From Rhipicephalus microplus (lineage: Eukaryota > Arthropoda > Arachnida > Ixodida > Ixodidae), in assembly GCF_043290135.1 (NCBI RefSeq), contig NW_027464602.1, positions 3,348,001-3,412,000 of the forward strand: a stretch of 64,000 bases of DNA. Direction: 5' to 3'. Shown here one piece after another: positions 1-64,000 of this stretch (positions are counted from its first letter, which is position 1; each line of letters opens with the position of its first letter). The notes under the pieces were generated by a model, which searched no databases, was not told where the DNA came from, and saw only the letters and a list, made by a program, of their open reading frames with translations. Position numbers and translations under genes: made by a program.

Positions 1-3000
1 CCACCGGGTGGGCTCGAACCTCCAACCTTTTGGTTAACGGCCGATCGCGCTAGCCAATTGCGCCACGGAGACAATCGTGCTGCACGCTCACCACCATCAG
101 AACATATCTTCAAAGCTATCAGTGCAAAGAAAAAAGCCACACAGCACTCCCGGGAGGGCTCGAAACTCCAACCTTTCGGCTAACAGCCCATCGCGCTAGC
201 CCACTGCGCCACGGAGACAGTCTTGCTCCACTCTCACCACCATCAGAACATATCTTCAAAGCTATCAGCGCAAAGAAAAAAAAGCGCCGCACCACCACCG
301 GGTGGGCTCGAACCTCCAGCCTTTCGGTTAATGGCCGATCGCGCAAGCCAATTGCGCCACGGAGACAGACATGCTCCACTCTCACCACCATCAGAACATA
401 TCTTCAAACCTATCAGCCCCAAAAAAAAAGCACCGCACCACCACCGGGCGGGCTGGAACCTCCAACCTTTCGGTTAACAGCCAATCGCGTTAGCCAATTG
501 CGCCACGGAGACAGTCCTGCTCCACTCTCACCACAATCAGAACATATCTTCAAAGCTATCAGCACAAAGAGAAAAAAGCGCCGCACCACCACCGGGTGGG
601 CTCGAAACTCCAACCTTTCGGTTAACAGCCGATCGTGCTAGCCAATTGCGCCATGGAGACAGTCCTGCTCCAGTCTCACCACCATCAGAACATATCTTCA
701 AAGCTATTAGTGCAAAGAAAAAAGCAGCACACCACTCCAGGAAGGACTCGAAACTCCAACCTTTCGGTTAACAGCCGATCGCGCTAGCCCATTGCGCCAC
801 GGGGACAGTCTTGCTTCACTCTCACCTCCATCAGTACATATCTTCAAAGCTATCAGCACAAAGAAAAAAAACGCCGCACCACCACCGCGTGGGCTCGAAC
901 CTCCAACCTTTCGGTTAACAGCCGATCGCGCTAGCCCATTGCGCCACGGGGACAGTCTTGCTCCACTCTCACCACCATCAGAACATATCTTCAAAGCTAT
1001 CAGCACAAAGAGAAAAAAGCGCCGCACCACCACCGGGTGGGCTCGAAACTCCAACCTTTCGGTTAACAGCCGATCGCGCTAGCCAATTGCGCCAGGGAGA
1101 CAGTCCTGCTCCACTCTCACCACCACCAGAACATATCTCCAAAGCTATTACCACAAAGAAAAAAGCAACACACCACTCCTGGGAGGGCTCGAAACTCCAA
1201 CCTTTCGGTTAACAGCCGATCGCGCTAGCCCATTGCGCCACGGAGACAGCCTTGCTCCACTCTCACCACCATTAGAACATATCTTTCAAGCTACCAGCCC
1301 AAAGAATAGAAAGCGCCGCGCCACCACCGGGTGGGCTCGAACCTCCAACCTTTTGGTTAACAGCCGATCGCGCTAGCCAATTGCGCCACGGAGACAGTCC
1401 TGCTTCATTTTCACCACCATCAGAACATATCTTCAAAGCTAATAGTGCAAAGAAAAAAGCGCCAAACCATCACCGGGTGGGCTCGAACCTCCAACCTTTC
1501 GGTTAACAGTCGATCGCGCAAGCCAATTGCGCCACGGAGACAGTCCTGCTCCACTCTCACCACCGTCAAAACATTTATTCAGAGCTATCACCCCAAAGAA
1601 AAAAAAGCGCCGCACCACCACCGGGAGGGCTCGAAACTCCAACCCTTCGGTTTACAGCCGATCGCGCTAGCCCATTGCGCCACGAGGACAGTCTTGCTCC
1701 ACTCTCACCACCATCAGAACATATCTTCAAAGCTATCAGCACAAAGAAAAAAAAAGCGCCGCACCACCACCGGGTGGGCTCGAACCTCCAACCTTTCGGT
1801 TAACAGCCGATTGCGCAAGCCAATTGCGCCACGGAGACGGTCCTGCTTCACTCTCACCACCATCAGAACATATCTTCAAAGCTATCAGCCCAAAGAAAAA
1901 AAGCACCGCACCACCACCGGGTGGGCTCGAACTTCCAACCTTTCGGTTAACAGCCAATCGCGCTAGCCAATTGCGCGACGGAGACAGTCCTGCTTCACTC
2001 TCACCACCATCAGAACATATCTTCAAAGCTATCAGCACAAAGAAAAAAAGCGCCACACCATCATCGGGTGGGCTCGAACCTCCAACCTTTCGGTTAACAA
2101 CCGATCGCGCAAGCCAATTGCACCACGGAGACAGTCCTGCTCCACACTCACCACCGTCAAAACATTTCTTCAGAGCTATCACCCCAAAGAAAAAAAAGCG
2201 CCGCACCACCACCGGGTAGGCTCGAAACTCCAACCTTTCGGTTAACAGCCGATCGCGCTAGCCAATTGCGCCACGGAGACAGTCCTGCTTCACTTTCACC
2301 ACCATCAGAACATATCTTCAAAGCTATCAGCACAAAGAAAAAAAAGCGCCACACCATCATCGGGTGGGCTCGAACCTCCAACCTTTCGGTTAACAGCCGA
2401 TCGCGCAAGCCAATTGCGCCACGGAGACAGTCCTGCTCCACACTCACCACCGTCAAAACATTTCTTCAGAGCTATCACCCCAAAGAAAAAAAAGCGCCGC
2501 GCCACCACCGGGTGGGCTCGAACCTCCAACCTTTCAGTTAACAGCCGATCGCGCTAGTCGATTGCGCCACGGAGACAGTCCTGGTCCACTCTCACCACCA
2601 TCAGAACATATCTTCAAAGCTATCAGCGCAAAGAAAAAAAGCGCCGCGCCACCACCGGGTGGGCTCGAACCTCCAACCTTTCGGTTAACAGCCGATCGCG
2701 CTAACCCATTGCGCCACGGGGACAGTCTTGCTCCACTCTCACCACTATCAGAACATATCTTCAAAGCTATCAGCGCAAAGAAAAAAAAGCGCCGCACCAC
2801 CACCGGGTGGGCTCGAACCTCCAACCATTCGGTTAACAGCCGATCGCGCTAGCCAATTGCGCCACAGACACAGTCTTGCTCCACTCTCAACACCATCAGA
2901 ACATATCTTCAAAGCTACAAGCGCAAAGAAAAAAAAGCGCGGCACCACCACCGGGTGGTCTCGAACCTCCAACCTTTCGGTTAACAGCCGATCGCGCTAG

Positions 3001-6000
3001 CCAATTGCGCCAGGGAGACAGTCCTGCTCCACTCTCACCACCATCAGAACATATCTTCAAAGCTATCAGCCCAAAGAAAAAAAGCACCGCACCACCACCG
3101 AGTGGGCTGGAACCTCCAACCTTTCGGTTAACAACCAATCGCGTTAGCCAATTTCGCCACGGAGACAGTCCTGCTCCACTCTCACCACCATCAGAACATA
3201 TCTTAAAGCTATCAGCACAAAGAGAAAAAAGCGCCGCACCACCACCGGGTGGGCTCGAAACTCCAACCTTTCGGTTAACAGCCGATCGCGCTAGCCAATT
3301 GCGCCATGGAGACAGTCCTGCTCCACTCTCACCACCATCAGAACATATCTTCAAAGCTATTACCACAAAGAAAAAAAAGCGCCGCAACACCACCGGGTTG
3401 GCTCGAACCTCCAACCTTTCGGTTAACAGCCGATCGCGCTAGCCAATTGCGCCACGAAGACAGTCCTGCTGCACTCTCACCACCATCAGAACATATCTTC
3501 AAAGCTATTACCGCAAAGAAAAAAGCAACACACCACTCCCGGGAGGGCTCGAAATTCCGACCTTTCGGTTAACAGCCGATCGCGCTAGCCCATTGTGCCA
3601 CGAAGACAGTCTTGCTCCACTCTCACCACCATCAGAACATATCATCAAAGCTATCAGCCCAAAAAAAAGCGCCGCACCACCACCGGGTGGGCTCGAACCT
3701 TCAACCTTTCGGTTAACAGCCGATCGCTCTAGCCAATTGCGCCACGGAGGCAGTCGTGCTCCACTCTTACCACCATCAGAACATATCTTCAAAGCTATCA
3801 GCACAAAGAAAAAAGAAACACACCACTCCCGGGAGGGCTCGAACCTCCAACTTTTCGGTTAACAGCCGATCGCGCTGGCCAATTGCTCCACGAAGACAGT
3901 CCTGCTCCACTCTCACCACCATTAGAACATATCTTTCAAGCTATCAGCCCAAAGAAAAAAAAAGCGCCGCACCACCACCGGGTGGGCTCGAACCTCCAAC
4001 CTTTTGGTTAACGGCCGATCGCGCTAGCCAATTGCGCCACGGAGACAATCGTGCTCCACGCTCACCAACATCAGAAAATATCTTCAAAGCTATCATCGCA
4101 AAGAAAAAAGCAACACATCCCACCCGGGAGGGCTCGAACCTCCAACTTTTTGGTTAAAAGCCGATCGCGCTAGCCAATGGCGCCACGGGGACAGTCCTGC
4201 TCCACTCTCACCACCGTCAGAACATTTCTTCAGAGCTATCAGCCTAAAGAAAAAAAGCGCCGCACCACCACCGGGTGGGCTCGAACCTACAACCTTTCGG
4301 TTAACAGCCGATCGCGCTAGCCAATTGCGCCACAGAGACAGTCGTGCTTCACTCTCACCACCGTCAGACCATTTCTTCAGAGCTATCGCCCCAAAGAAAA
4401 AAAAAGCGCCGCACCACCACCGGGTGGGCTCGAACCTCCAACCTTTCGGTTCAAAGTTTATCGCGCTAGCCAATTGCGCCACGGAGACAGTCCTGCTCCA
4501 CTCTCACCACCGTCAGAACATTTCTTCAGAGCTATCAGCCCAAAGAAGAAAAAGCGCCGCACCACCACCGGGTGGACTCGAAACTCCAACCTTTCGGTTA
4601 TCAGCCGATCGCGCTAGCCAATTGCGCCATGGAGACAGTCCTGCTCCACTCTCACCACCATCAGAACATATCTTCAAAGCTATTAGCGCAAAGAAAAAAG
4701 CGCCGCGCCACCTTCGGGTGGGCTCGAACCTCCAACCTTTCGGTTAACAGCCGATCGCGCTAACCCATTGCGCCACGGGGACAGTCTTGCTCCACTCTCA
4801 CCACTATCAGAACATATCTTCAAAGCTATCAGCGCAAAGAAAAAAAGCGCCGCAGAACCACCAGGTGGGCTCGAACCTCCAACCTTTCGGTTAACAGCCG
4901 ATCGCGCTAGCCAATTGCGCCACAGAGACAGTCTTGCTCCACTCTCAACACCATCAGAACATATCTTCAAAGCTACAAGCGCAAAGAAAAAAAAGCGCCG
5001 CACCACCACCGGGTGGGCTCGAACCTCCAACCATTCAGTTAACAGCCGATCGCGCTAGCGAATTGCGCCACGGGGACAGTCTTGCTCCACCCTCACCACC
5101 ATCAGAACATATCTTCAAAGCTATCAGTGCAAAGAAAAAAAAGCGCCGCACCACCACCGGGTGTGCTCGAACCTCCAACCTTTCGGTTAACAGCCGATCG
5201 CGCTAGCCAATTGCGCCAGGGAGACAGTCCTGCTCCACTCTCACCACCATCAGAACATATCTTCAAAGCTATCAGCCCAAAGAAAAAAAAGCACCGCACC
5301 ACCACCGGGTGGGCTCGAACCTCCAACCTTTCGTTTAACAGCCAATCGCGCTAGCCAATTGCGCCACGGAGACAGTCCTGCTCCACTCTCACCACCATCA
5401 GAACATATCTTCAAAGCTATCAGCACAAAGAAAAATAAGCGCCGCACCACCACCGGGTAGGCTCTAAACTCCAACCTTTCGGTTAACAGCCGATCGCGCT
5501 AGCCAATTGCGCCATGGAGACAGTCCTGCTCCACTCTCACCACCATCAGAACATATCTTCAAAGCTATTACCACAAAGAAAAAAGCAACACACCACTCCT
5601 GGGAGGGCTCGAACCTCCAACCTTTTGGTTAACAGCCGATCGCGCAAGCCAATTGCGCCACGGAGACAGTCCTGCTCCACTCTCACCACCATCAGAACAT
5701 ATCTTCAAACCTATTAGCGCAAAGAAAAAAAGCGCCGCGCCACCACCGGGTGGGCTCAAACCTCCAACCTTTCGGTTAACAGCCGATCGCGCTAACCCAA
5801 TGCGCCACGGGGACAGTCTTGCTCCACTCTCACCACCATCAGAACATAACTTCAAAGCTATCAGCGCAAAGAAAAAAAAGCGCCGCACCACCACCGGGTG
5901 GGCTCGAACCTCCAACCTTTCGGTTACCAGCCGATCGCGCTAGCCAATTGCGCCACGGAGACAGTCTTGCTCCACTCTCAACACCATCAGAACATATCTT

Positions 6001-8816
6001 CAAAGCTACAAGCGCAAAGAAAAAAAAGCGCCGCACCACCACCGGGTGGGCTCGAACCTCCAACCTTTCGGTTAACAGCCAATCGCGTTAGCCAATTGCG
6101 CCACAGAGACAGTCCTGCACCACTCTCACCACCATCAGAACATATCTTCAAAGCTATCAGCACAAAGAGAAAAAAGCGCCGCACCACCACCGGGTGGGCT
6201 CGAAACTCCAACCTTTCGGTTTACAGCCGATCGCGCTAGCCAATTGCGCCAGGGAGACAGTCCTGCTCCACTCTCACCACCGTCAGAACATATCTTCAAA
6301 GCTATTACCACAAAGAAAAAAGCAACACACCACTCCTGGGAGGGCTCGAAACTCCAACCTTTCGGTTAACAGCTGATCGTGCTAGCCCATTGCGCCACGG
6401 AGACATCCTTGCTCCAATCTCAACACCATCAGAACATATCTTCAAAGCTATTAGCGCAAAGAAAAAAAGCGCCGCACCACCACCGGGTGGGCTCGAACCT
6501 CCAACCTTTCGGTTAACAGCCGATCGCGCTAGCCAATTGCGCCACGAAGACAGTCCTGCTGCACTCTCACCACCATCAGAACATATCTTCAAACTATCAG
6601 CGCAAAAAAAAGCGCCGCACCACCACCGGGTGGGCTCGAACCTCCAACCTTTCGGTTAACAGCCAATCGCGTTAGCCAATTGCGCCACAGAGACAGTCCT
6701 GCTCCACTCTCACCACCATCAGAACATATCTTCAAAGCTATCAGCACAAAGAGAAAAAAGCGCCGCACCACCACCGGGTGGGCTCGAAACTCCAACCTTT
6801 CGGTTTACAGCCGATCGCGCTAGCCAAATGCGCCACGGAGACAGTCGTGCTCCACTCTCACCACCATCAGAACATATCTTCAAAGCTATCAGCCCAAAGA
6901 AAAAAAAGCGCCGCACCACCTCCGGGTGGGCTCGAACCTCCAACCTTTCGGTTAACAGCCGATCGCGCTAGCCTATTGCACCACGGAGACAGTCGTGCTC
7001 CATTCTCACCACCGTCAGAACATTTCTTCAAAGCTATCAGCACAAAGAAAAAAAAGCGGCACACCATCACCGCGTGGGCTCGAACCTCCAACCTTTCGGT
7101 TAACCGCCGATCGCGCTAGCCAAATGCGCCACGGAGACAGTCGTGCTCCACTCTCACCACCATCAGAACATATCTTCAAAGCTATCAGCCCAAAGAAAAA
7201 AAAGCGCCGCACCACCTCCGGGTGGGCTCGAACCTCCAACCTTTCGGTTAACAGCCGATCGCGCTAGCCTATTGCACCACGGAGACAGTCGTGCTCCACT
7301 CTCACCACCGTCAGAACATTTCTTCAGAGCTATCACCCCAAAAAAAAAAGAGCCGCAGCACCACCGGGTGGGCTCGAACCTCCAACCTTTCGGTTAACAG
7401 CCGATCGCGCTAGCCAATTGCGCCACGAAGACAGTCCTGCTGCACTCTCACCACCATCAGAACATATCTTCAAACTATCAGCGCAAAAAAAAAGCGCCGC
7501 ACCACCACCGGGTGGGCTCGAAACTCCAACCTTTTGGTTAACAGCCGATCGCGCTAGCCAATTGCGCCACAGAGACAGTCTTGCTCCACTCTCAACACAA
7601 TCAGAACATATCTTCAAAGCTACAAGCGCAAAGAAAAAAAAGCGCCGCACCACCACCGGGTGGGCTCGAACCTCCAACCTTTCGGTTAACAGCCGATCGC
7701 GCTAGCCAATTGCGCCATGGAGACAGTCCTGCTCCACTCTCACCACCATCAGAACATATCTTCAAAGCCATCAGCCCAAAGAAAAAAAAGCACCGCACCA
7801 CCACCGGGTGTGCTCGAACCTCCAACCTTTCGGTTAACAGCCAATCGCGCTAACCCAATGCGCCACGGGGACAGTCTTGCTCCACTCTCACCACCATCAG
7901 AACATATCTTCAAAGCCATAAGCCCAAAGAAAAAAAAGCACCGCACCACCACCGGGTGGGCTCGAACCTCCAACCTTTCGGTTAACAGCCAATCGCGCTA
8001 GCCAATTGCGCCACGGAGACAGTCCTGCTCCACTCTCACCACCATCAGAACATATCTTCAAAGCTATTAGCGCAAAGAAAAAAAAGCGCCGCGCCACCAC
8101 CGGGTGGGCTCGAACCTCCAACCTTTCGGTTAACAGCCGATCGCGCTAACCCAATGCGCCACGGGGACAGTCTTGCTCCACTCTCACCACCATCAGAACA
8201 TATCTTCAAAGCTATCAGCGCAAAAAAAAATAGCGCCGCACCACCACCGGGTGGGCTAGAACCTCCAACCTTTCGGTTAACAGCCGATCGCGCTAGCCAA
8301 TTGCGCCACGGAGACAGTCTTGCTCCACTCTCAACACCATCAGAACATATCTTCAAAGCTACAAGCGCAAAGAAAAAAAAGCGCCGCACCACCACCGGGT
8401 GGGCTCGAACCTCCAACCTTTCGGTTAACAGCCAATCGCGTTAGCCAATAGCGCCACGGAGACAGTCCTGCTTCACTCTCACCACCATCAGAACATATCT
8501 TCAAAGCTATCAGCACAAAGAGAAAAAACCGCCGCACCACCACCGGGTGGGCTCGAACCTCCAACCTTTCGGTTAACAGCCGATCGCGCTAGCCAATTGC
8601 GCCACAGAGACAGTCTTGCTCCACTCTCACCACCATCAGAACATATCTTCAAAGCTACAAGCGCAAAGAAAAAAAAGCGCCGCACCACCACCGGGTGGGC
8701 TCGAACCTCCAACCTTTCGGTTAACAGCCGATCGCGCTAGCCAATTGCGCCACGGGGACAGTCTTGCTCCACTCTCACCACCATCAGAACATATCTTCAA
8801 AGCTATCAGCGCAAAG

Positions 8817-8824
8817 AAAAAAAA
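8817..8824 (-). terminator. oligo-T run, Pol III terminator (representative copy)
   Basis: Eight A on the plus strand, i.e. T8 on the minus strand, lie 10 nt downstream of the tRNA-like sequence at 8835-8907. Runs of four or more T are the standard termination signal for RNA polymerase III. Most monomers in all four blocks have one at this place, though length varies and a few are broken (for example near 1309 and 36156, where the run is interrupted). Termination here is inferred, not shown. Confidence 0.6.
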
Positions 8825-9128
8825 GCGCCGCACCACCACCGGGTGGGCTCGAACCTCCAACCTTTCGGTTAACAGCCGATCGCGCTAGCCAATTGCGCCA
8901 GGGAGACAGTCCTGCTCCACTCTCACCACCATCAGAACATATCATCAAAGCTATCAGCCCAAAGAAAAAAAAGCGCCGCACCACCACCGGGTGGGCTCGA
9001 ACCTTCAACCTTTCGGTTAACAGCCGATCGCACTAGCCAATTGCGCCACGGAGGCAGTCGTGCTCCACTCTTACCACCATCAGAACATATCTTCAAAGCT
9101 ATCAGCACAAAGAAAAAAGCAACACACC

Positions 9129-9201
9129 ACTCCCGGGAGGGCTCGAACCTCCAACTTTTCGGTTAACAGCCGATCGCGCTGGCCAATTGCTCCACGGAGA
9201 C
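9129..9201 (-). pseudogene. tRNA-Asn(GTT)-like copy, CCTCC T-stem subtype
   Basis: Representative of the minority monomer subtype with the plus-strand sequence CTCCCGGGAGGGCTCGAA. Read on the minus strand it is 73 nt long and folds as a cloverleaf. The T stem GGAGG/CCTCC pairs fully, unlike the majority subtype. The acceptor stem GTCTCCG/CGGGAGT keeps one C-A mismatch and wobble pairs, and the anticodon stem has the A-A mismatch common to the array. The anticodon is GTT. The A-box region is altered in this copy (GGAGCAATTGG instead of TGGCGCAATTGG). Probably not a functional tRNA gene. Confidence 0.6.
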
Positions 9202-9742
9202 AGTCCTGCTCCACTCTCACCACCATTAGAACATATATTTCAAGCTATCAGCCCAAAGAAAAAAAAGCGCCGCACCACCACCGGGTGGGCTCGAACCTCC
9301 AACCTTTTGGTTAACGGCCGATCGCGCTAGCCAATTGCGCCACGGAGACAATCGTGCTCCACGCTCACCAACATCAGAAAATATCTTCAAAGCTATCATC
9401 GCAAAGAAAAAAAGCAACACACCCCACCCGGGAGGGCTCGAACCTCCAACTTTTTGGTTAAAAGCCGATCGCGCTAGCCAAGTTGTACAAGTAGCAGCCA
9501 ATATGGGCGGAGCCATCCAATAAGACCGGCATTATTGGCCCGCCGTTTGAACGTTATTGCCGGCGTCAGCTGAAAAGTCAACATCACGATGTCATAATAT
9601 TAGAATATGAGCCAATTTCTTCGTGTGCTGCTTTTTGGCGCTGTTCTGGCCCCAATTCACGCGCCGATTTTTCAAGTTAGAGAGAGAGTAATATATGTGC
9701 CGGGCACACTATTAGAACTATCTTTTCGTCATTAAACCATGC

Positions 9743-9983
9743 CCCGCCGCGGCGGTCTAGTGGCTAAGGTACTCGGCTGCTGACCCGCAGGTTGCGGGTT
9801 CGAATCCCGGCTGCGGCGGCTGCATTTCCGATGGAGGCGGAAATGTTGTAGGCCCGTGTGCTCAGATTTGGGTGCACGTTAAAGAACCCCAGGTGGTCGA
9901 AATTTCCGGAGCCCTCCACTACGGCGTCTCTCATAATTATATGGTGGTTTTGGGACGTTAAACCCCACATATCAATCAATAAA
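9743..9983 (+). mobile_element. tRNA-derived SINE (Ruka-like), complete, with 14-bp TSD
   Basis: The 5' part is tRNA-like: acceptor halves GCCGCGG and CTGCGGC pair, an A-box-like CGGTCTAGTGG is present, and the B box GGTTCGAATCC is a perfect match to consensus. A tRNA-unrelated body follows, ending in an ATCAATCAATAAA-type tail. The element is flanked by a perfect 14-bp direct repeat TCATTAAACCATGC at 9729-9742 and 9984-9997, the target-site duplication of LINE-driven insertion. I recognise the body as a very common tick repeat. The name Ruka-like is from memory of the family, and the source tRNA cannot be fixed because the anticodon stem is irregular. It has no protein. Confidence 0.88.
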
Positions 9984-9997
9984 TCATTAAACCATGC

Positions 9998-12212
9998 ACA
10001 GCTCGTTGAAATGCATAATCGTTGGTTGAAGTTGTGCAAGGTAGACTTTTTAAGTGAGAAAAAATTACCGATCAAGTTTCTCTGTCAGACGTGACGTCCG
10101 ATGCGGTGCTATCCGTACGTATGACGAAGCTGCTGCGGATACCGCTGTCTTACGCGTGCATGTAGACGTCGAACATCTGACGCAAATCTTAACGTATCAT
10201 GTGTCGGGCTAGCTATCTACGCGACCTATTCTAATCTGTTTTGCGTTCACAGCACAGTACGGTTAACGGCACTTGCTGCTGCTTGACGCGTGGGAAGAGC
10301 GGGGGTCGTCAGTTGCGTTATGGTGACTGAATCATACAGCATATGCAGTTGCCGTGATCTAACACACAGACGCGCGTGCGCGCGCACGCACGCGCTATAT
10401 TAATGCAACGACCACACGAATTCCCAACAACATCGCAGCGAACGGTTGGTAAGGTGTTGCGGAGTGTGTTGGGCGTCGTATAGGGCACCCTGTCGGTGCC
10501 CAGCTCGTTGCGAACGCGAATTTCGGCGTGGAACGCATCTTTTTTATGTACTTTTTTTACGTGTGCCCAAAACGGTAGGCTGCGCGATACGAGAAGTACG
10601 ACACACAAAAAAAAAAGAAACGTGAATGCATAGGGCAAATTGTTAATAACAAAAAAAAAACCACGCACGGTCACGCCACTGCAGTGGCGTGAGCGTGCGT
10701 GTTTTTTTCTTATTAACGAAGCACATGTGCTTCCATAAAACATGACAGCCAAGAATGATGAAGTATTCATTTACATACAAATTACTATGAGTTGCTGAAA
10801 CTCACGCAAAAGAACATAATTTTCTTCCTCGGATATTGATCGAGTGCCTTGGAATTATGCTATGTGAATTTGACACATCAACAGTGCATTATGATTCCCA
10901 CCATAAGGGGCCACAATCTTGGCAAGTAATAGAAGTACTCTTCCCACCTGATGTGCACCTAACGTAAAGAGGCCTTGTTTCTCAAGTTAGCAATATATAT
11001 CATATATATATGTATATATAACCACTGGAAAAATATACCAGGTGTAACCAGAAAAAGGTGCACCTGCAAATTTAAAGTTTAAAAGAAGCAATGACATGCC
11101 AACCATCCAAAATAGAACGCCTGAGAAAGGAGCATCAATCAGTATTACAGCAGCTAAAAGCCTGCTAACAGCTGAAGGTAGTCATGCTGCTCTTCCATTC
11201 AAGTATAGTGTACACTGAGAAAAGATACTGAAGATACACCATCAGCAAATGACAAAAGCAATACAGACCGAGCTTTCTCTTATAATACAAAAAGTTTTTA
11301 GCTGAGGAGGAAAATAAGTCATTGGCACACAATAAGTGCACAAAAAAAAAGCTGTCGCACGAGACTGTCAGCGCTTAGACAACACAGGCAAAAATACAGT
11401 AGACTGAAGAAGGGAAAACCCATAGCAAAAGTTACCATACTCCTGAGTTCTTGCTTTGCGTGCAAATGAAGCTAGCGTGAAGTTGAACACTAGATTAAAG
11501 CACCACAATCAAAATCTGGAAGTCAATGCTTTAGGAATAATACAAAGTACTGAAGAAGCATGCAAGGAGCATTCCTGTGAAGGAAAATATAAATAAAGAC
11601 TGAAAGCTCTGTGGCCCTGAACAAGACAACACCACAATCAATCGAAGAGCCGTTCGGACACACCAGCAGTTCTGGCCAACACTGAAAAGTCACAAAAACA
11701 TACCTTTAATGCCTTTTTTACAAGAGAACTTCAAAAGAAATGTGCATACACCAATGCCAGAAGTATCGATGGAAGCTATTACTCATATTCAGCTCTTCAT
11801 TGAAACACTGACAGAAGATACTTGTACCTGGATGCTTAATTACTTTGGTACAACTCAAGAGCGTCGACGCAAAGTGGCAAAAAAATTATGATGGAAGACT
11901 ACAATGTGATCAAATGCACACGTCAACCACCAACCAAGGTCCTATGCTAGAGTGAATATCGCAAAAGTCTTGAATGCCTAATGTCACTGGCTCATACTCA
12001 GCGTTTTCAATCAAAATCTTGACCTCCCACACAGCATATTATTTCAACAACCTGCCACCTCTCACCATGTCATGAAACAAGCTCGAGTATACACAAACCC
12101 TCCTCACCGTTAGGTAGTTAGATAGCTCCACTAGGGCTTCACTCTTGGAACACATAGACCAGGGCCGTAACTAGACGGGTAGTGAGGAGGTTCTGAGCCC
12201 CTCAAGTATTTT
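9998..12212. other. single-copy intergenic DNA, no gene recognised
   Basis: AT-rich DNA without a coding frame I can support. Contents seen: an alternating purine-pyrimidine tract at about 10370-10396, a long palindrome at about 10643-10720, and a TA-rich stretch at about 10991-11021. A 60-codon frame at 11709-11891 matches nothing I know and lacks flanking splice or promoter evidence. Confidence 0.5.
10643..10720. repeat. near-perfect palindrome (potential hairpin)
   Basis: The two arms read outward from a central CTGCAG: CACGCACG with GTCACGCCACTG on the left and CAGTGGCGTGAGCGTGCGTG on the right, continued by oligo-A/C opposite oligo-T/C. The outer ends read TTAATAA and TTATTAA. The central 14 bases are an exact palindrome, with a few mismatches and a small length difference in the A/T runs further out. 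It could be a very small MITE with TTAA ends or simply a snap-back sequence. No coding content. Confidence 0.6.
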
Positions 12213-13200
12213 CATGCTCTGACTTTTCGTCAACAATAGCTTAATCTGGGCAAGTTGGTTCATCGTGGTTGTGTTCTAGTAACAGTGAGAAAAGTTGAGG
12301 AAGAGACAAAAAGGACAGGAAAGAGCGCTGACTGCCAACTAAATTTTATTGAAGGTACTACGCCCACTTTTTTACAGAGTACAAGAACAGTGCTCATGCA
12401 CAACGACACATGTGAGACCATGATAATATAATCTTAACTGAGAAAAGAATACTCTCTCTCCGAATGGATGAGTGAAGGTATACTGATGCACTGATCCATG
12501 GCCTTCCTGACAAGAAAATGCTTTCACAGTCTCTCTTTCATTTCTTGTTCTTGCTTTTTTCAAAAACAGTGTTTTATGAAACATAGAACTGCACTTACAT
12601 TCTTTACAGTGTATGGCCATGCGACTACCATAGCCATTCTTAACATTTTAAGCATGCTGTCTTGCTCAAACATTGGGGCATTGCCCAGTTTGTCTTATGT
12701 TTACGTTTCCACATGTCAATAGTATCTCATACACAACATTATATTGGAATTCAGTATACCTATTCTCGTGACGAATGGCTATTCCTGTTGCTTTTTAGTA
12801 CACACACTTTTGAAAACTTGCAAGGGATGGCAAACAACAAGATAAAATCATATCGGCTCGCTATTTTCTTTATATTGTGAAACACCTTATGTACGTACGG
12901 TATAGCATGCAAAGATCTTTGGTCATTCTGTTTTTATTTTGGTCCTGTTTTGTTTAACTTGACTTTCTGCAGGAGGGTTTAGCACACGGGTGTGATGGTG
13001 CTGTTGGGATATCCAGCATCTTTTAGTCTTTTAATCTGGTTTTTAAGGCTTACCTCATCCTTGTGCTCACATGACTTCTGAAGGGTGGCCTCAATGCACG
13101 TGGTGGCAATTCCTCTGTGTAAATTGCGTAAATGTGTAATTATGTCTTATGATGTACTAAAAAAGATGTCCCAAGATTCAGAATAAGTGACAGTAGTCAA
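12213..13200 (-). mobile_element. Penelope-like retroelement fragment (RT end, GIY-YIG remains, 3' UTR)
   Basis: The minus-strand translation of about 13110-12976 reads GIATTCIEATLQKSCEHKDE and continues to a KRLKDAGYP motif, the conserved stretch that follows the reverse transcriptase in Penelope-like elements. Further on, remnants VVYEILLTCGN and RQTGQCPNV correspond to the GIY-YIG endonuclease region (expected YIGQTGRC, here decayed). Then CKECKCSSMFHKTLFLKKA and RNERETVKAF at 12620-12500 match the C-terminal histidine/cysteine part. The 3' end includes CAATAAAATTTAGTTGGCAG (complement of about 12340), which I recall as a frequent tick transcript repeat. Frames are broken by stops and shifts, so this is a dead copy missing its 5' part. 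Confidence 0.72.
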
Positions 13201-13582: not shown

Positions 13583-13585
13583 TTA

Positions 13586-13806: not shown

Positions 13807-13809
13807 TTA

Positions 13810-51800: not shown

Positions 51801-53199
51801 TCACCCCAAAGAAAAAAGAGCACCGCACCACCACCGGGTAGGCTCGAAACTCCAACCTTTCGGTTAACAGCCGATCGCGCTAGCCAATTGCGCCATGGAG
51901 ACAGTCCTGCTCCACTCTCACCACCATCAGAACATATCTTCAAAGCCATCAGCCCAAAGAAAAAAAGCACCGCACCACCACCGGGTGGGCTCGAACCTCC
52001 AACCTTTCGGTTAACAGCCAATCGCGCTAGCCACTTGCGCCACGGAGACAGTCCTGCTCCACTCTCACCACCATCAGAACATATCTTCAAAGCTATTAGC
52101 GCAAAGAAAAAAGCGCCGCGCCACCACCGGGTGGGCTCGAACCTCCAACCTTTCGGTTAACAGCCGATCGCGCTAGCCTATTGCCCCACGGAGACAGTCG
52201 TGCTCCACTCTCACCACCGTCAGAACATTTCTTCAGAGCTATCACCCCAAAGAAAAAAAAGAGCCGCAGCACCACCGGGTGGGCTCGAACCTCCAACCTT
52301 TCGGTTAACAGCCGATCGCGCTAGCCAATTGCGCCACGAAGACAGTCCTGCTGCACTCTCACCACCATCAGAACATATCTTCAAACTATCAGCGCAAAAA
52401 AAAGTGCCGCACCACCACCGGGTGGGCTCGAAACTCCAACCTTTTGGTTAACAGCCGATCGCGCTAGCCAATTGCGCCACAGAGACAGTCTTGCTCCACT
52501 TTCAACACCATCAGAACATATCTTCAAAGCTACAAGCGCAAAGAAAAAAAAGCGCCACACCACCACCGGGTGGGCTCGAACCTCCAACCTTTCGGTTAAC
52601 AGCCGATCGCGCTAGCCAATTGCGCCACAGGGACAGTCTTGCTCCACCCTCACCACCATCAGAACATATCTTCAAAGCTATCAGCGCAAAGAAAAAAAAG
52701 CGCCGCACCACCACCGGGTGTGCTCGAACCTCCAACCTTTCGGTTAACAGCCGATCGCGCTAGCCAATTGCGCCAGGGAGACAGTCCTCCTCCACTCTCA
52801 CCGCCATCAGAACATATCTTCAAAGCTATCAGCCCAAAGAAAAAAAAGCACCGCACCACCACCGGGTGGGCTCGAACCTCTAACCTTTCGTTTAACAGCC
52901 AATCGCGCTAGCCAATTGCGCCAAGGAGACAGTCCTGCTCCACTCTCAACACCATCAGAACATATCTTCAAAGCTATCAGCACAAAGACAAAAAAGCGCC
53001 GCACCACCACCGGGTAGGCTCGAAACTCCAACCTTTCGGTTAACAGCCGATCGCGCTAGCCAATTGCGCCATGGAGACAGTCCTGCTCTACTCTCACCAC
53101 CATCAGAACATATCTTCAAAGCTATTACCACAAAGAAAAAAGCAACACACCACTCCTGGGAGGGCTCGAACCTCCAACCTTTTGGTTAACAGCCGATCG

Positions 53200-56100
53200 C
53201 GCAAGCCAATTGCGCCACGGAGACAGTCCTGCTCCACTCTCACCACCATCAGAACATATCTTCAAAGCTATTAGCGCAAAGAAAAAAAGCGCCGCGCCAC
53301 CACCGGGTGGGCTCGAACCTCCAACCTTTCGGTTAACAGCCGATCGCGCTAACCCAATGCGCCACGGGGACAGTCCTGCTCCACTCTCACCACCATCAGA
53401 ACATATCTTCAAAGCTATCAGAACAAAGAAAAAAAAGCGCCACGCCATCATCGAGTGGGCTCGAACCTCCAACCTTTCGGTTAACAACCGATCGCGCAAG
53501 CCAATTGCACCACGGAGACAGTCCTGCTCCACACTCACCACCGTCAAAACATTTCTTCAGAGCTATCACCCCAAAGAAAAAAAAGCGCCGCACCACCACC
53601 GGGTAGGCTCGAAACTCCAACCTTTCGGTTAACAGCCGATCGCGCTAGCCAATTGCGCCATGGAGACAGTCCTGCTCCACTCTCACCACCATCAGAACAT
53701 ATCTTCAAAGCCATCAGCCCAAAGAAAAAAAAGCACCGCACCACCACCGGGTGGGCTCGAACCTCCAACCTTTCGGTTAACAGCCAATCGCGCTAGCCAC
53801 TTGCGCCACGGAGACAGTCCTGCTCCACTCTCACCACCATCAGAACATATCTTCAAAGCTATTAGCGCTAAGAAAAAAAGCGCCGCGCCAACACCGGGTG
53901 GGCTCGAACCTCCAACCTTTCGGTTAACAGCCGATCGCGCTAACCCAATGCGCCACGGGGACAGTCTTGCTCCACTCTCACCACCATCAGAACATATCTT
54001 CAAAGCCATCAGCCCAAAGAAAAAAAACACCGCACCACCACCGGGTGGGCTCGAACCTCCAACCTTTCGGTTAACAGCCAATCGCGCTAGCCAATTGCGC
54101 CACGGAGACAGTCCTGCTCCACTCTCACCACCATCAGAACATATCTTCAAAGCTATTAGCGCAAAGAAAAAAAGCGCTGCGCCACCACCGGGTGGGCTCG
54201 AACCTCCAACCTTTCGGTTAACAGCCGATCGCGCTAATCCAATGCGCCACGGGGACAGTCTTGCTCCACTCTCACCACCATCAGAACATATCTTCAAAGC
54301 TATCAGCGCAAAGAAAAATAGCGCCGCACCACCACCGGGTGGGCTCGAACCTCCAACCTTTCGGTTAACAGCCGATCGCGCTAGCCAATTGCGCCACGGA
54401 GACAGTCTTGCTCCACGCTCAACACCATCAGAACATATCTTCAAAGCTACAAGCGCAAAGAAAAAAAAGCGCCGCACCACCTCCGGGTGGGCTCGAACCT
54501 CCAACCTTTCGGTTAACAGCCAATCGCCTTAGCCAATAGCGCCACAAAGACAGTCCTGCTCCACTCTCACCACCATCAGAACATATCTTCAAAGCTATCA
54601 GCACAAAGAGAAAAAAGCGCCGCACCACCACCGGGTGGGCTCGAAACTCCAACCTTTCGGTTAACAGCCGATCGCGCTAGCCAAATGCGCCAGGGAGACA
54701 GTCCTGCTTCACTCTCACCACCATCAGAACATATCTTCAAAGCTATTAGCGCAAAGAAAAAAAGCGCCGCGCCACCTTCGGGTGGGCTCGAACCTCCAAC
54801 CTTTCGGTTAACAGCCGATCGCGCTAACCCATTGCGCCACGGGGACAGTCTTGCTCCACTCTCACCACTATCAGAACATATCTACAAAGCTATCAGCGCA
54901 AAGAAAAAAAAGCGCCGCACCACCACCGGGTGGGCTCGAACCTCCAACCTTTCGGTTAACAGCCGATTGTGCAAGCCAATTGCGCCACGGAGACAGTCCT
55001 GCTCCACTCTCACCACCATCAGAACATATCTTCAAAGCTATCAGCCTAAAGAAAAAAAGCACCGCACCACCACCGGGTGGGCTCGAACTTCCAGCCTTTC
55101 GGTTAACAGCCAATCGCGCTAGCCAATTGCCCCACGGAGACAGCCCTGCTTCACTCTCACCACCATCAGAACATATCTTCAAAGCTATCAGCACAAAGAA
55201 AAAAAAGCGCCACACCATCATCGGGTGGGCTCGAACCTCCAACCTTTCGGTTAACAGCCGATCGCGCAAGCCAATTGCGCCACGGAGACAGTCCTGCTCC
55301 ACACTCACCACCGTCAAAACATTTCTTCTGAGCTATCACCCCAAAGAAAAAAAAGCGCCGCACCACCACCGGGTGGGCTCGAACCTCCAACCTTTCAGTT
55401 AACAGCCGATCGCGCTAGCCGATTGCGCCACGGAGACAGTCCTGGTCCACTCTCACCACCATTAGAACATATCTTCAAAGCTATCAGCGCAAAGAAAAAA
55501 AAGCGCCGCGCCACCACCGGGTGGGCTCGAACCTCCAACCTTTCGGTTAACAGCCGATCGCGCTAACCCATTGCGCCACGGGGACAGTCTTCCTCCACTC
55601 TCACCACTATCAGAACATATCTTCAAAGCTATCAGCGCAAAGAAAAAAAAGCGCCGCACCACCACCGGGTGGGCTCGAACCTCCAACCTTTCGGTTAACA
55701 GCCGATCGCGCTAGCCAATTGCGCCACAGAGACAGTCTTGCTCCACTCTCAACACCATCAGAACATATCTTCAAAGCTACAAGCGCAAAGAAAAAAAAGC
55801 GCCGCACCACCACCGGGTGGGCTCGAACCTCCAACCTTTCGGTTAACAGCCGATCGCGCCAGCCAATTGCGCCAGGGAGACAGTCCTGCTCCACTCTCAC
55901 CACCATCAGAACATATCTTCAAAGCTATCAGCCCAAAGAAAAAAAGCACCGCACCACCACCGGGTGGGCTGGAACCTCCAACCTTTCGGTTAACAGCCAA
56001 TCGCGTTAGCCAATTGCGCCACGGACACAGTCCTGCTCCACTCTCACCACCATCAGAACATATCTTAAAGCTATCAGCACAAAGAGAAAAAAGCGCCGCA

Positions 56101-56880
56101 CCACCACCGGGTGGGCTCGAAACTGCAACCTTTCGGTTAACAGCCGATCGGGCTAGCCAATTGCGCCATGGAGACAGTCCTGCTCCACTCTCACCACCAT
56201 CAGAACATATCTTCAAAGCTATTACCACAAAGAAAAAAAGCGCCGCAACACCACCGGGTTGGCTCGAACCTCCAACCTTTCGGTTAACAGCCGATCGCGC
56301 TAGCCAATTGCGCCACGAAGACAGTCCTGCTGCACTCTCACCACCATCAGAACATATCTTCAAAGCTATTACCGCAAAGAAAAAAGCAACACACCACTCC
56401 CGGGAGGGCTCGAAATTCCAACCTTTCGGTTAACAGCCGATCGCGCTAGCCCATTGCGCCACGGAGACAGTCTTGCTCCACTCTCACCACCATCAGAACA
56501 TATCTTCAAACTATCAGCGCAAAAAAAGCGCAGCACCACCACCGGGTGGGCTCGAAATTCCAACCTTTTGGTTAACAGCCGATCGCGCTTGCCCATTGCG
56601 CCACGGGGACAGTCTTGCTCCACTCTCACCACCATCAGAACATATCATCAAAGCTATCAGCACAAAGAGAAAAAAGCGCCGCACCACCATTGGGTGGGCT
56701 CGAAACTCCAACCTTTCGGTTAACAGCCGATAGCGCTAGCCAATTGCGCCATGGAGACAGTCCTGCTCCACTCTCACCACCATCAGAACATATCTTCAAA
56801 GCTATTACCACAAAGAAAAAAGCAACACACCACTCCTGGGAGGGATCGAAACTCCAACCTTTCAGTTAACAGCTGATCGC
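53200..56880 (-). repeat. higher-order repeat in block D, copy 1
   Basis: Equivalent points lie 3680 bp apart on the left (53396 and 57076, 53544 and 57224) and 3385-3386 bp apart further right (54685 and 58071, 55166 and 58551, 55462 and 58847). The change of 294 bp equals two monomers, present here near 53.85-54.15 kb and absent in copy 2. Edges are approximate. Confidence 0.7.
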
Positions 56881-59800
56881 GCTAGCCCATTGCGCAACGG
56901 AGACAGCCTTGCTCCAATCTCAACACCATCAGAAAATATCTTCAAAGCTATTAGCGCAAAGAAAAAAAGCGCCGCACCACCACCGGGTGGGCTCGAACAT
57001 CCAACCTTTCGGTTAACAGCCGATCGCGCTAGCCAATTGCGCCACGGAGACAGTCCTGCTCCACTCTCACCACCATCAGAACATATCTTCAAAGCTATCA
57101 GAACAAAGAAAAAAAAGCGCCACGCCATCATCGGGTGGGCTCGAACCTCCAACCTTTCGGTTAACAACCGATCGCGCAAGCCAATTGCACCACGGAGACA
57201 GTCCTGCTCCACACTCACCACCGTCAAAACATTTCTTCAGAGCTATCACCCCAAAGAAAAAAAAGCGCCGCACCACCACCGGGTAGGCTCGAAACTCCAA
57301 CCTTTCGGTTAACAGCCGATCGCGCTAGCCAATTGCGCCATGGAGACAGTCCTGCTCCACTCTCACCACCATCAGAACATATCTTCAAAGCCATCAGCCC
57401 AAAGAAAAAAAAGCACCGCACCACCACCGGGTGGGCTCGAACCTCCAACCTTTCGGTTAACAGCCAATCGCGCTAGCCAATTGCGCCACGGAGACAGTCC
57501 TGCTCCACTCTCACCACCATCAGAACATATCTTCAAAGCTATTAGCGCAAAGATAAAAAGCGCCGCGCCACCACCGGGTGGGCTCGAACCTCCAACCTTT
57601 CGGTTAACAGCCGATCGCGCTAATCCAATGCGCCACGGGGACAGTCTTGCTCCACTCTCACCACCATCAGAACATATCTTCAAAGCTATCAGCGCAAAGA
57701 AAAATAGCGCCGCACCACCACCGGGTGGGCTCGAACCTCCAACCTTTCGGTTAACAGCCGATCGCGCTAGCCAATTGCGCCACGGAGACAGTCTTGCTCC
57801 ACGCTCAACACCATCAGAACATATCTTCAAAGCTACAAGCGCAAAGAAAAAAAAGCGCCGCACCACCTCCGGGTGGGCTCGAACCTCCAACATTTCGGTT
57901 AACAGCCAATCGCCTTAGCCAATAGCGCCACAAAGACAGTCCTGCTCCACTCTCACCACCATCAGAACATATCTTCAAAGCTATCAGCACAAAGAGAAAA
58001 AAGCGCCGCACCACCACCGGGTGGGCTCGAAACTCCAACCTTTCGGTTAACAGCCGATCGCGCTAGCCAAATGCGCCAGGGAGACAGTCCTGCTTCACTC
58101 TCACCACCATCAGAACATATCTTCAAAGCTATTAGCGCAAAGAAAAAAAGCGCCGCGCCACCTTCGGGTGGGCTCGAACCTCCAACCTTTCGGTTAACAG
58201 CCGATCGCGCTAACCCATTGCGCCACGGGGACAGTCTTGCTCCACTCTCACCACTATCAGAACATATCTACAAAGCTATCAGCGCAAAGAAAAAAAGCGC
58301 CGCACCACCACCGGGTGGGCTCGAACCTCCAACCTTTCGGTTAACAGCCGATTGTGCAAGCCAATTGCGCCACGGAGACAGTCCTGCTCCACTCTCACCA
58401 CCATCAGAACATATCTTCAAAGCTATCAGCCTAAAGAAAAAAAGCACCGCACCACCACCGGGTGGGCTCGAACTTCCAGCCTTTCGGTTAACAGCCAATC
58501 GCGCTAGCCAATTGCCCCACGGAGACAGCCCTGCTTCACTCTCACCACCATCAGAACATATCTTCAAAGCTATCAGCACAAAGAAAAAAAAGCGCCACAC
58601 CATCATCGGGTGGGCTCGAACCTCCAACCTTTCGGTTAACAGCCGATCGCGCAAGCCAATTGCGCCACGGAGACAGTCCTGCTCCACACTCACCACCGTC
58701 AAAACATTTCTTCTGAGCTATCACCCCAAAGAAAAAAAAGCGCCGCACCACCACCGGGTGGGCTCGAACCTCCAATCTTTCAGTTAACAGCCGATCGCGC
58801 TAGCCGATTGCGCCACGGAGACAGTCCTGGTCCACTCTCACCACCATCAGAACATATCTTCAAAGCTATCAGCGCAAAGAAAAAAAAGCGCCGCGCCACC
58901 ACCGGGTGGGCTCGAACCTCCAACCTTTCGGTTAACAGCCGATCGCGCTAACCCATTGCGCCACGGGGACAGTCTTCCTCCATTCTCACCACAATCAGAA
59001 CATATCTTCAAAGCTATCAGCGCAAAGAAAAAAAAGCGCCGCACCACCACCGGGTGGGCTCGAACCTCCAACCTTTCGGTTAACAGCCGATCGCGCTAGC
59101 CAATTGCGCCACAGAGACAGTCTTGCTCCACTCTCAACACCATCAGAACATATCTTCAAAGCTACAAGCGCAAAGAAAAAAAAGCGCCGCATCACCACCA
59201 CCGGGTGGGCACGAACCTCCAACCTTTCGGTTAACAGCCGATCGCGCTAGCCAATTGCGCCACGGGGACAGTCTTGCTCCACTCTCACCACCATCAGAAC
59301 ATATCTTCAAAGCTATCAGCGCAAAGAAAAAAAAGCGCCGCACCACCACCGGGTGGGCTCGAACCTCCAACCTTTCGGTTAACAGCCGATCGCGCCAGCC
59401 AATTGCGCCAGGGAGACAGTCCTGCTCCACTCTCACCACCATCAGAACATATCTTCAAAGCTATCAGCCCAAAGAAAAAAAGCACCGCACCACCACCGGG
59501 TGGGCTGGAACCTCCAACCTTTCGGTTAACAGCCAATCGCGTTAGCCAATTGCGCCACGGAGACAGTCCTGCTCCACTCTCACCACCATCAGAACATATC
59601 TTAAAGCTATCAGCACAAAGAGAAAAAAGCGCCGCACCACCACCGGGTGGGCTCGAAACTGCAACCTTTCGGTTAACAGCCGATCGGGCTAGCCAATTGC
59701 GCCATGGAGACAGTCCTGCTCCACTCTCACAACCATCAGAACATATCTTCAAAGCTATTACCACAAAGAAAAAAAGCGCCGCAACACCACCGGGTTGGCT

Positions 59801-60500
59801 CGAACCTCCAACCTTTCGGTTAACAGCCGATCGCGCTAGCCAATTGCGCCAAGAAGACAGTCCTGCTGCACTCTCACCACCATCAGAACATATCTTCAAA
59901 GCTATTACCGCAAAGAAAAAAGCAACACACCACTCCCGGGAGGGCTCGAAATTCCAACCTTTCGGTTAACAGCCGATCGCGCTAGCCCATTGCGCCACGG
60001 AGACAGTCTTGCTCCACTCTCACCACCATCAGAACATATCTTCAAACTATCAGCGCAAAAAAAGCGCAGCACCACCACCGGGTGGGCTCGAAATTCCAAC
60101 CTTTTGGTTAACAGCCGATCGCGCTTGCCCATTGCGCCACGGGGACAGTCTTGCTCCACTCTCACCACCATCAGAACATATCATCAAAGCTATCAGCCCA
60201 AAGAAAAAAAAGCGCCGCACCACCACCGGGTGGGCTCGAACCTTCAACCTTTCGGTTAACAGCCGATCGCACTAGCCAATTGCGCCACGGAGGCAGTCGT
60301 GCTCCACTCTTACCACCATCAGAACATATCTTCAAAGCTATCAGCACAAAGAAAAAGCAACACACCACTCCCGGGAGGGCTCGAACCTCCAACTTTTCGG
60401 TTAACAGCCGATCGCGCTTGCCAATTGCTCCACGGAGACAGTCCTGCTCCACTCTCACCACCATTAGAACATATCTTTCAAGCTATCAGCCCAAAGAAAA
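56881..60500 (-). repeat. higher-order repeat in block D, copy 2
   Basis: Partner of the preceding unit. Around 59.2 kb it has one additional monomer compared with copy 1 (offset 3536 bp at 56369 and 59905). The internal gains and losses in whole-monomer steps show continuing unequal exchange. Edges are approximate. Confidence 0.65.
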
Positions 60501-63500
60501 AAAAAGCGCCGCACCACCACCGGGTGGGCTCGAACCTCCAACCTTTTGGTTAACGGCCGATCGCGCTAGCCAATTGCGCCACGGAGACAATCGTGCTCCA
60601 CGCTCACCAACATCAGAAAATATCTTCAAAGCTATCATCGCAAAGAAAAAAGCAATACACCCCACCCGGGAGGGCTCGAACCTCCAACTTTTCGGTTAAA
60701 AGCCGATCGCGCTAGCCAATGGCGCCACGGGGACAGTCCTGCTCCACTCTCACCACCGTCAGAACATTTCTTCAGAGCTATCAGCCTAAAGAAAAAAAGC
60801 GCCGCACCACCACCGGGTGGGCTCGAACCGACAACCTTTCGGTTGACAGCCGATCGCGCTAGCCAATTGCGCCACAGAGACAGTCGTGCTTCACTCTCAC
60901 CACCGTCAGACCATTTCTTCAGAGCTATCGCCCCAAAGAAAAAAAAGCGCCGCACCACCACCGGGTGGGCTCGAACCTCCACCCTTTCGGTTAAAAGTTG
61001 ATCGCGCTAGCCAATTGCGCCACGGAGACAGTCCTGCTCCACTCTCACCACCGTCAGAACATTTCTTCAGAGCTATCAGCCCAAAGAAGAAAAAGCGCCG
61101 CACCACCACCGGGTGGGCTCGAAACTCCAACCTTTCGGTTATCAGCCGATCGCGCTAGCCAATTGCGCCATGAAGACAGTCCTGCTCCACTCTCACCACC
61201 ATCAGAACATATCTTCAAAGCTATTAACGCAAAGAAAAAAAGCGCCGCGCCACCACCGGGTGGGTTCGAACCTCCAACCTTTCGTTTAACAGCCAATCGC
61301 GCTAGCCAATTGCGCCACGGAGACAGTCCTGCTCCACTCTCACCACCATCAGAACATATCTTCAAAGCTATCAGCACAAAGAAAAAAAAGCGCCGCACCA
61401 CCACCGGGTAGGCTCGAAACTCCAACCTTTCGGTTAACAGCCGATCGCGCTAGCCAATTGCGCCATGGAGACAGTCCTGCTCCACTCTCACCACCATCAG
61501 AACATATCTTCAAAGTTATTACCACAAAGAAAAAAGCAACACACCACTCCTGGGAGGGCTCGAACCTCCAACCTTTTGGTTAACAGCCGATCGCGCAAGC
61601 CAATTGCGCCACGGAGACAGTCCTGCTCCACTCTCACCACCATCAGAACATATCTTCAAAGCTATTAGCGCAAAGAAAAAAAGCGCCGCGCCACCACCGG
61701 GTGGGCTCGAACCTCCAACCTTTCGGTTAACAGCCGATCGCGCTAACCCAATGCGCCACGGGGACAGTCTTGCTCCACTCTCACCACCATCAGAACATAT
61801 CTTCAAAGCTATCAGCGCAAAGAAAAAAAAGCGCCGCACCACCACCGGGGGGCTCGAACCTCCAACCTTTCGGTTAACAGCCGATCGCGCTAGCCAATTG
61901 CGCCACGGAGACAGTCTTGCTCCTCTCTCAACACCATCAGAACATATCTTCAAAGCTACAAGCGCAAAGAAAAAAAAGCGCCGCACCACCACCGGGTGGG
62001 CTCGAACCTCCAACCTTTCGGTTAACAGCCAATCGCGTTAGCCAATTGTGCCACAGAGACAGTCCTGCTCCACTCTCACCACCATCAGAACATATCTTCA
62101 AAGCTATCAGCACAAAGAGAAAAAAGCGCCGCACCACCACCGGGTGGGCTCGAAACTCCAACCTTTCGGTTAACAGCCGATCGCGCTAGCCAATTGCACC
62201 ATGGAGACAGTCCTGCTCCACTCTCACCACCGTCAGAACATATCTTCAAAGCTATTACCACAAAGAAAAAAGCAACACACCACTCCTGGGAGGGCTCGAA
62301 ACTCCAACCTTTCGGTTAACAGCTGATCGCGCTAGCCCATTGCGCCACGGAGACAGCCTTGCTCAAATCTCAACACCATCAGAACATATCTTCAAAGCTA
62401 TTAGCGCAAAGAAAAAAAGCGCCGCACCACCACCGGGTGGGCTCGAACATCCAACCTTTCGGTTAACAGCCGATCGCGCTAGCCAATTGCGCCACGGAGA
62501 CAGTCCTGCTCCACTCTCACCACCATCAGAACATATCTTCAAAGCTATGAGTGCAAAGAAAAAAGCAGCACACCACTCCCGGGAGGGCTCGAAACTCCAA
62601 CCTTTCGGTTAACAGCCGATCGCGCTAGCCCATTGCGCCACGGGGACAGTCTTGCTCCACTCTCACCACCATCAGTACATATCTTCAAAGCTATCAGCAC
62701 AAAGAAAAAAAAACGCCGCACCACCACCGGGTGGGCTCGAACCTCCAACCTTTCGGTTAACAGCCGATCGCGCAAGGCAATTGCGCCACGGAGACAGTCC
62801 TGCACCACTCTCACCACCATCAGAACATATCTTCAAAGCTATCTGCCCAAAGAAAAAAAGCACCGCACCACCACCGGGTGGGCTCGAACCTCCAACCTTT
62901 CGGTCAACAGGTAATCGCGCTAGCCAATTGCGCCACGGAGACAGTCCTGCTCCACTCTCACCACCATCAGAACATATCTTCAAAGCTATCAGCACAAAGA
63001 AAAAAATGCGGCACACCATCACCGCGTGGGCTCGAACCTCCAACCTTTCGGTTAACAGCCGATCGCGCTAGCCAAATGCGCCACGGAGACAGTCGTGCTC
63101 CACTCTCACCACCATCAGAACATATCTTCAAAGCTATCAGCCCAAAGAAAAAAAAGCGCCGCACCACCTCCGGGTGGGCTCGAACCTCCAACCTTTCGGT
63201 TAACAGCCGATCGCGCTAGCCTATTGCCCCACGGAGACAGTCGTGCTCCACTCTCACCACCGTCAGAACATTTCTTCAGAGCTATCACCCCAAAGAAAAA
63301 AAAGAGCCGCAGCACCACCGGGTGGGCTCGAACCTCCAACCTTTCGGTTAACAGCCGATCGCGCTAGCCAATTGCGCCACGAAGACAGTCCTGCTGCACT
63401 CTCACCACCATCAGAACATATCTTCAAACTATCAGCGCAAAAAAAAGTGCCGCACCACCACCGGGTGGGCTCGAAACTCCAACCTTTTGGTTAACAGCCG

Positions 63501-64000
63501 ATCGCGCTAGCCAATTGCGCCACAGAGACAATCTTGCTCCACTTTCAACACCATCAGAACATATCTTCAAAGCTACAAGCGCAAAGAAAAAAAAGCGCCG
63601 CACCACCACCGGGTGGGCTCGAACCTCCAACCTTTCGGTTAACAGCCGATCGCGCTAGCCAATTGCGCCACAGGGACAGTCTTGCTCCACCCTCACCACC
63701 ATCAGAACATATCTTCAAAGCTATCAGCGCAAAGAAAAAAAAGCGCCGCACCACCACCGGGTGTGCTCGAACCTCCAACCTTTCGGTTAACAGCCGATCG
63801 CGCTAGCCAATTGCGCCAGGGAGACAGTCCTGCTCCACTCTCACCGCCATCAGAACATATCTTCAAAGCTATCAGCCCAAAGAAAAAAAAGCACCGCACC
63901 ACCACCGGGTGGGCTCGAACCTCCAACCTTTCGTTTAACAGCCAATCGCGCTAGCCAATTGCGCCACGGAGACAGTCCTGCTCCACTCTCACTACCATCA

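Follow-up and report, generated by a model that had tools for sequence, protein, structure and literature searches.

A tandem array of tRNA-Asn pseudogene units with RNA polymerase III-type signals in the tick Rhipicephalus microplus

Introduction

Tandem repeats that include a tRNA-like part are described in amphibians, in a newt, Xenopus and Rana, with a doubtful further case in Hydromantes (PMC10702118). Here we describe a stretch of 64,000 nucleotides from the tick Rhipicephalus microplus (contig NW_027464602.1 of assembly GCF_043290135.1, positions 3,348,001 to 3,412,000), referred to below as the window, much of which is a head-to-tail array of a 148-bp unit containing a pseudogene of tRNA-Asn. 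By its structure the array fits the amphibian tandem repeats with RNA polymerase III (Pol III) signals, in that its unit contains a tRNA-derived segment with an A box and a B box. It represents a clear hard-tick case in which an entire tRNA gene unit would have become satellite DNA, and no tick array of this kind is described among the open-licence literature matches listed.

The PolIII/TAN repeat of the newt Cynops shares with the tick array its tandem arrangement, a tRNA-derived part and Pol III signals. According to the account in PMC10702118, its unit is about 360 nt, its tRNA-Glu origin is named in a cited title, and it is transcribed in vitro, whereas the tick unit is 148 bp, is related to tRNA-Asn and is known here from its sequence. 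OAX in Xenopus and Rana/polIII are also tandem units with a tRNA-like segment, but theirs are longer, and Rana/polIII is given as 64% like a tRNA over 64 nt (PMC10702118). The tick unit consensus is identical at 65 of 74 bases to human tRNA-Asn. Satellites derived from short interspersed elements (SINEs) in squamates have a similar unit length and up to hundreds of copies per place; as described, they are built from SINE portions (PMC10702118), whereas no SINE parent was seen in the tick window. In the Drosophila simulans complex, tandem arrays of tRNA units expand and contract and are described as tRNA clusters (PMC7919458), whereas the tick array consists of degenerate copies of a single tRNA. 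On wheat chromosome 6B a single tRNA type, tRNA-Lys, has been multiplied by repeats; there the gene is reported to be carried by a Gypsy element or by unclassified repeats (PMC3989483), whereas in the tick the tRNA-like unit is itself tandem. Two known tick repeats are set apart by their descriptions, ISR-2 having units of 95-99 bp compared with 148 bp here (PMC4748124), and the SINE Ruka having Pol III promoters but being dispersed and likened to tRNA-Ser (PMC3160391).

Organization of the array and its unit

With an nhmmer cut-off of E<=1e-3, the 148-bp unit has 294 matches in the window, all on the minus strand and occupying approximately 42.9 of the 64 kb. Most of these (287 of 294) reach across at least 135 of the 148 unit positions, and the tandem period given by TRF (Tandem Repeats Finder) is also 148. 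The array is real, as its copy number leaves chance no part, and as a long head-to-tail series of a short unit on a single strand it is satellite DNA. The original prediction, made from the letters of this DNA, had put about 290 minus-strand copies of about 148 bp across the whole window. The number, size and strand are borne out, but the array does not fill the window: approximately 21.1 kb is non-array sequence, consisting of three interruptions (a gypsy-type long terminal repeat (LTR) retrotransposon, a non-LTR retrotransposon and an 11.3-kb stretch). Both ends of the window fall within the array, which continues past each of them.

We aligned 286 of the copies, requiring a monomer border in the array on each side; the remaining eight matches either were truncated at an interruption or window end or had no copy following. 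The length was 146-149 in 264 of the 286 aligned copies, and identity to the consensus averaged 94.5% (range 82-99%). There were 232 distinct sequences among the 286.

Read on the minus strand, the unit consensus begins with the tRNA-like part (positions 1-73/74), followed by a trailer of about 9-10 nt that extends to position 83, a T-rich segment (84-95) and a spacer (96-148), with the next tRNA-like part beginning at position 149. The consensus anticodon is GTT, and the loop string TGTTAAC that contains it was present in 247 of 286 copies. ARAGORN called 205 tRNAs, all on the minus strand, of which 196 were Asn (195 GTT and one ATT) and nine were of other types (three Lys, two Tyr, two Asp, one Ile and one Thr). 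The Rfam tRNA model RF00005 gave 236 cmscan matches at or above its gathering score, with one outside the array (plus strand, 9746-9818) and 235 within it, at 29.0-49.5 bits. A covariance-model score had been named as a check on the tRNA assignment, and these 235 copies pass it.

The fold is incomplete in every copy. The consensus forms 18 of 21 stem pairs compared to 21 of 21 in human tRNA-Asn, with pairs 4-70 (T-T), 28-44 (A-A) and 52-64 (A-A) broken. None of the 286 copies has all 21 pairs; the range is 9-19, and 267 copies have 16-18. In 37 of 286 copies a T at position 64 restores the pair with A52 in the T stem, and this minority variant may be the older form of the unit. No CCA follows the tRNA part, which makes a copy of a mature tRNA unlikely. 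Because CCA is absent and the trailer and T run resemble a native terminator, we favor an origin in which a gene was copied together with its flanks. The monomer is a pseudogene form of a tRNA-Asn gene, as first proposed, and the unit as a whole looks like an entire tRNA-Asn(GTT) gene plus flanks.

Pol III signals were searched for with the A-box and B-box motifs of tRNA genes. Both boxes are present in the unit consensus, with an A box in 219 of 286 copies, a B box in 205 and both in 148. A run of at least four T residues was found in 283 of 286 copies, with the run beginning at copy position 84 in 260 of 286, and all three signals occurred together in 145 of 286. The sequence TTTT also lies within the tRNA-like part in nine of 286 copies. 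The signals are thus in place in the unit, but the expectation that each copy would have the fold and the boxes was too broad: 235 of the 294 matches have a tRNA score, and the three signals come together in roughly half of the aligned copies.

Sequence decay at box and stem positions

We used parsimony to count the changes at each site on a FastTree tree built from the 230 sequences that are distinct at consensus columns. Slower decay of the box sites was not detected, with a mean of 3.68 changes at non-CpG box sites versus 3.57 at non-CpG sites outside the boxes and the T run (p=0.59). The 15 box positions were all intact in 52.1% of copies, which is not unusual for that number of sites, as 41 of 147 shifted masks did equally well or better. 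Constraint on the B box alone is unproven, its five non-CpG sites averaging 2.4 changes (p=0.23).

A maintained RNA fold would also be expected to favor changes that keep stem pairs. At G-C stem pairs, there were 42 C>T changes, which keep a wobble pair, and 42 G>A changes, which break the pair. The control outside the stems gave 45 C>T changes at 14 C sites and 58 G>A changes at 35 G sites. C>T is therefore, if anything, the easier change outside the stems, so the 42:42 ratio shows no pair-keeping bias within them. All stem changes away from the consensus comprise 46 that keep and 101 that break a pair, as raw counts. Neither the complete cloverleaf stems nor the purifying selection on stems that mark a functional tRNA gene cluster was found.

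Neither a maintained promoter nor a maintained RNA fold is indicated, which, given the limited power of these comparisons, falls short of proof of none. The Pol III signals look inherited rather than maintained, because the box sites decay no slower and the stems have no pair-keeping bias. The original prediction had gone further, to maintained transcription competence with titration of TFIIIC/TFIIIB, a small-RNA role or a boundary role. Those functions are unproven, and the box sites, shifted masks and stem changes speak mildly against them.

Growth of the array

Neighboring copies differ by 10.7%, compared to 10.2% for all pairs. Runs of five or more near-identical monomers number 21, at offsets of 11 to 236 monomers, and the two longest are both at an offset of 23 monomers, or approximately 3.39 kb (Table 1). 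These repeated runs are the trace that would be expected if blocks of many monomers were exchanged unequally. Such spread, through unequal exchange or the duplication of blocks, is typical of satellite DNA, and the array has this property as well.

Origin of the array and competing explanations

We consider it probable that a tRNA-Asn gene gave rise to the array and that the array is neutral satellite DNA, with promoter-like motifs kept by descent. We infer that a tRNA-Asn gene was copied at the DNA level with its own flank and terminator, that three stem pairs were lost, and that a satellite arose by head-to-tail amplification of the unit. Many-monomer blocks, of 23 monomers in the two longest cases, would then have been exchanged unequally, spreading the array and homogenizing it in part. 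Both boxes and the T run would be a legacy of the gene, and they decay about as fast as the other positions. The array would be nearly silent; low-level Pol III recruitment by some copies is possible, while maintenance is not seen in the sequence. Retroelements have inserted into the array.

Several points weigh against this account. Box intactness (52.1%) exceeds the mean for shifted positions (42.6%, standard deviation 14.9), and B-box positions 55-59 are quiet, with 0-2 changes each. The least changed stretch is in the spacer, at positions 103-122, with a raw mean of 1.8 changes versus 3.9 overall; as proof of constraint it was dropped, with p=0.068 for the best 20-base window after base-class correction. 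The T run of at least four is retained in 283 of 286 copies, and all three interruptions have a join at consensus positions 113-116. Each of these features could mark a bound unit. In addition, homogenization lowers the power of the tests, and the tree takes exchange between copies as descent.

These points bear on a transcription-competent Pol III satellite, in which many copies would be bound by TFIIIC/TFIIIB and give rise to short tRNA-like RNAs, and occupancy would matter through titration, a boundary or small RNA. It gains from the 145 of 286 copies with an A box, a B box and a T run of at least four, and from the position of the least changed block 27-46 bp upstream of the tRNA part, where the interruptions join. 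We regard it as unlikely, however, as the boxes have no significant excess conservation and the stems no pair-keeping bias. Derivation from a tRNA-Asn-headed SINE, as in the squamate satellites (sSats), is another reading, SINE-derived satellites with units of approximately 70-290 nt being described elsewhere (PMC10702118). It has a small chance of being correct, since the unit retains a natural-looking trailer, the T run and both acceptor strands, no other copy of the unit occurs in the 21 kb of non-array window sequence, and the sole SINE-like element seen in that sequence, from 9746, carries a tRNA head of another type.

The 196 Asn tRNAs called by ARAGORN might instead suggest a working tRNA-Asn gene cluster retained for dose, and tick tRNA genes are reported in a Dermacentor preprint to outnumber those of other Acari and insects 20-30-fold (PMC13105059). 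This is very improbable, given that 0 of 286 copies have all stem pairs, the best Rfam score is 49.5 bits, and no stem constraint was seen. The preprint counts, as described, were taken once the calls had been filtered by confidence and by a score cut-off of 50, and were read as more translational capacity (PMC13105059). In tick genomes, raw tRNA scans can include satellite monomers in their counts, as shown by 205 ARAGORN tRNAs in 64 kb compared to 0 of 286 copies with complete stems, and arrays of this type are an obvious item to check in high tick tRNA counts. The two blocks that recur almost exactly at a 23-monomer offset could reflect misassembly, but an assembly artefact is scarcely credible when copies are 10% different on average and the gypsy and non-LTR insertions sit in phase with short duplications.

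Open frames within the array were taken as accidental rather than as genes. A search with a 152-aa array frame returned 119 proteins from 256 candidates, and the nine inspected by eye match only via the tRNA part. Five spacer peptide signatures were found in 0 of 239 proteins, comprising the listed relatives of the non-LTR element and the array-frame matches. One protein (P0121, 254 aa, from an 8900-base contig) contains the tRNA-Asn-like reading twice, approximately 150 residues apart, which suggests tandem tRNA-Asn units in another source.

Interruptions and their shared junction

By flank alignment, the non-LTR element joins the array at consensus positions 113 and 124, the gypsy element at 114-116 and the 11.3-kb stretch at 116, with its other end at 16. 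The joins at 113-124 lie approximately 25-36 bp upstream of the next tRNA-like part, those at 113-116 about 35 bp, and both retroelements are oriented against that part. The chance of two more events falling within 2-5 bp of the first is approximately 0.002-0.01, with either end of the 11.3-kb stretch allowed, in a post hoc test with n=3 and a distance picked by the analyst. As a lead only, the shared junction hints at mobile elements landing on one spot of the unit. A common AT-rich target is a simpler reading than targeting.

TRE5 elements of Dictyostelium are described as inserting in an orientation opposite to that of tRNA genes, approximately 44-54 bp upstream of them, and targeting by TRE5-A as being abolished by B-box mutations (PMC5911963). 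The tick insertions are similar in lying just upstream of a tRNA-like unit in the opposite orientation, but the TRE5 case comprises many genes, whereas here there are two elements and one more junction, at approximately 25-36 bp from pseudogenes. It is conceivable, and in our judgment doubtful, that TFIIIB still assembles on the array, approximately 30-35 bp upstream of every tRNA-like part, and that two unrelated kinds of tick retroelement, gypsy LTR and endonuclease-type non-LTR, land on this complex. If so, the satellite would act in an animal as a sink for mobile elements marked out by Pol III, a counterpart of Ty3 and TRE5 targeting. The shared insertion site makes it cheap to test whether insertion can be directed by Pol III in an animal.

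The gypsy element sits in phase in the array, and its 173-bp LTRs have three differences between them. The insertion is probably fairly young, because the LTRs differ at only these sites and the element has long open frames. The non-LTR element is bordered by an 11-12-bp target-site duplication (consensus 113-124). Its second open reading frame (ORF2) has 727 relatives; among the 120 listed, the species-named ones are all from hard ticks (Haemaphysalis, Dermacentor, Rhipicephalus, Amblyomma and Ixodes), and the closest relative among the matches listed has 100% identity. These relatives support a hard tick as the source of the DNA. A 44-base inverted repeat with a 90.9% self-match lies near the 5′ end of this element.

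Table 1 Features of the window, with coordinates counted from its first base. Coordinates of the duplicated blocks are the low ends of their monomers.
Feature	Position	Strand	Basis
Array block 1, running off the window start	1..9481	-	nhmmer and junction alignment
11.3-kb non-array stretch	9482..20773		joins array at consensus 16 (low end) and 116 (high end)
Array block 2	20774..24554	-	nhmmer and junction alignment
Gypsy-type LTR retrotransposon, ends to within ~3 bp	24552..29797	+	domains, LTRs, flank alignment
Frame with Retrotrans_gag domain, stop to stop	24691..26082	+	domain scan
Frame with reverse transcriptase, RNase H and integrase domains, stop to stop	25965..29591	+	domain scan
Array block 3	29795..41289	-	nhmmer and junction alignment
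22-monomer block in array block 3, 0.37% different	34332-37424 and 37719-40812	-	monomer comparison
Best-scoring tRNA-like copy, 49.5 bits, 19/21 pairs	39706..39779	-	Rfam RF00005 score and pair count
Non-LTR retrotransposon, TC-rich 3′ end	41290..45889	+	domains, flank alignment
ORF2 frame, endonuclease and reverse transcriptase, 1259 codons stop to stop	41988..45767	+	domain scan
Array block 4, running off the window end	45890..64000	-	nhmmer and junction alignment
13-monomer block in array block 4, 0.73% different	53963-55734 and 57348-59119	-	monomer comparison

Other features of the window

An exact 28-base spacer pattern had no match in viral and prokaryote contig collections, as expected. 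In the 11.3-kb stretch, nine of the 15 frames that are at least 100 aa long and lie wholly inside it were scanned, and none of the nine had a significant domain. One frame in this stretch matched the Pfam family Toxin_13 at E=0.04, below the cut-off, which was taken as chance. The stretch also contains a SINE-like element on the plus strand, from 9746 to approximately 9990. Its tRNA-like head scores 34.3 bits and is not of the Asn type, and is followed by approximately 170 bases with a short ATCAATCAATAAA tail at the end. Two short unrelated tandem repeats are also found there, one with a 133-bp unit (17949-18227) and the other with a 23-bp unit (20657-20704).

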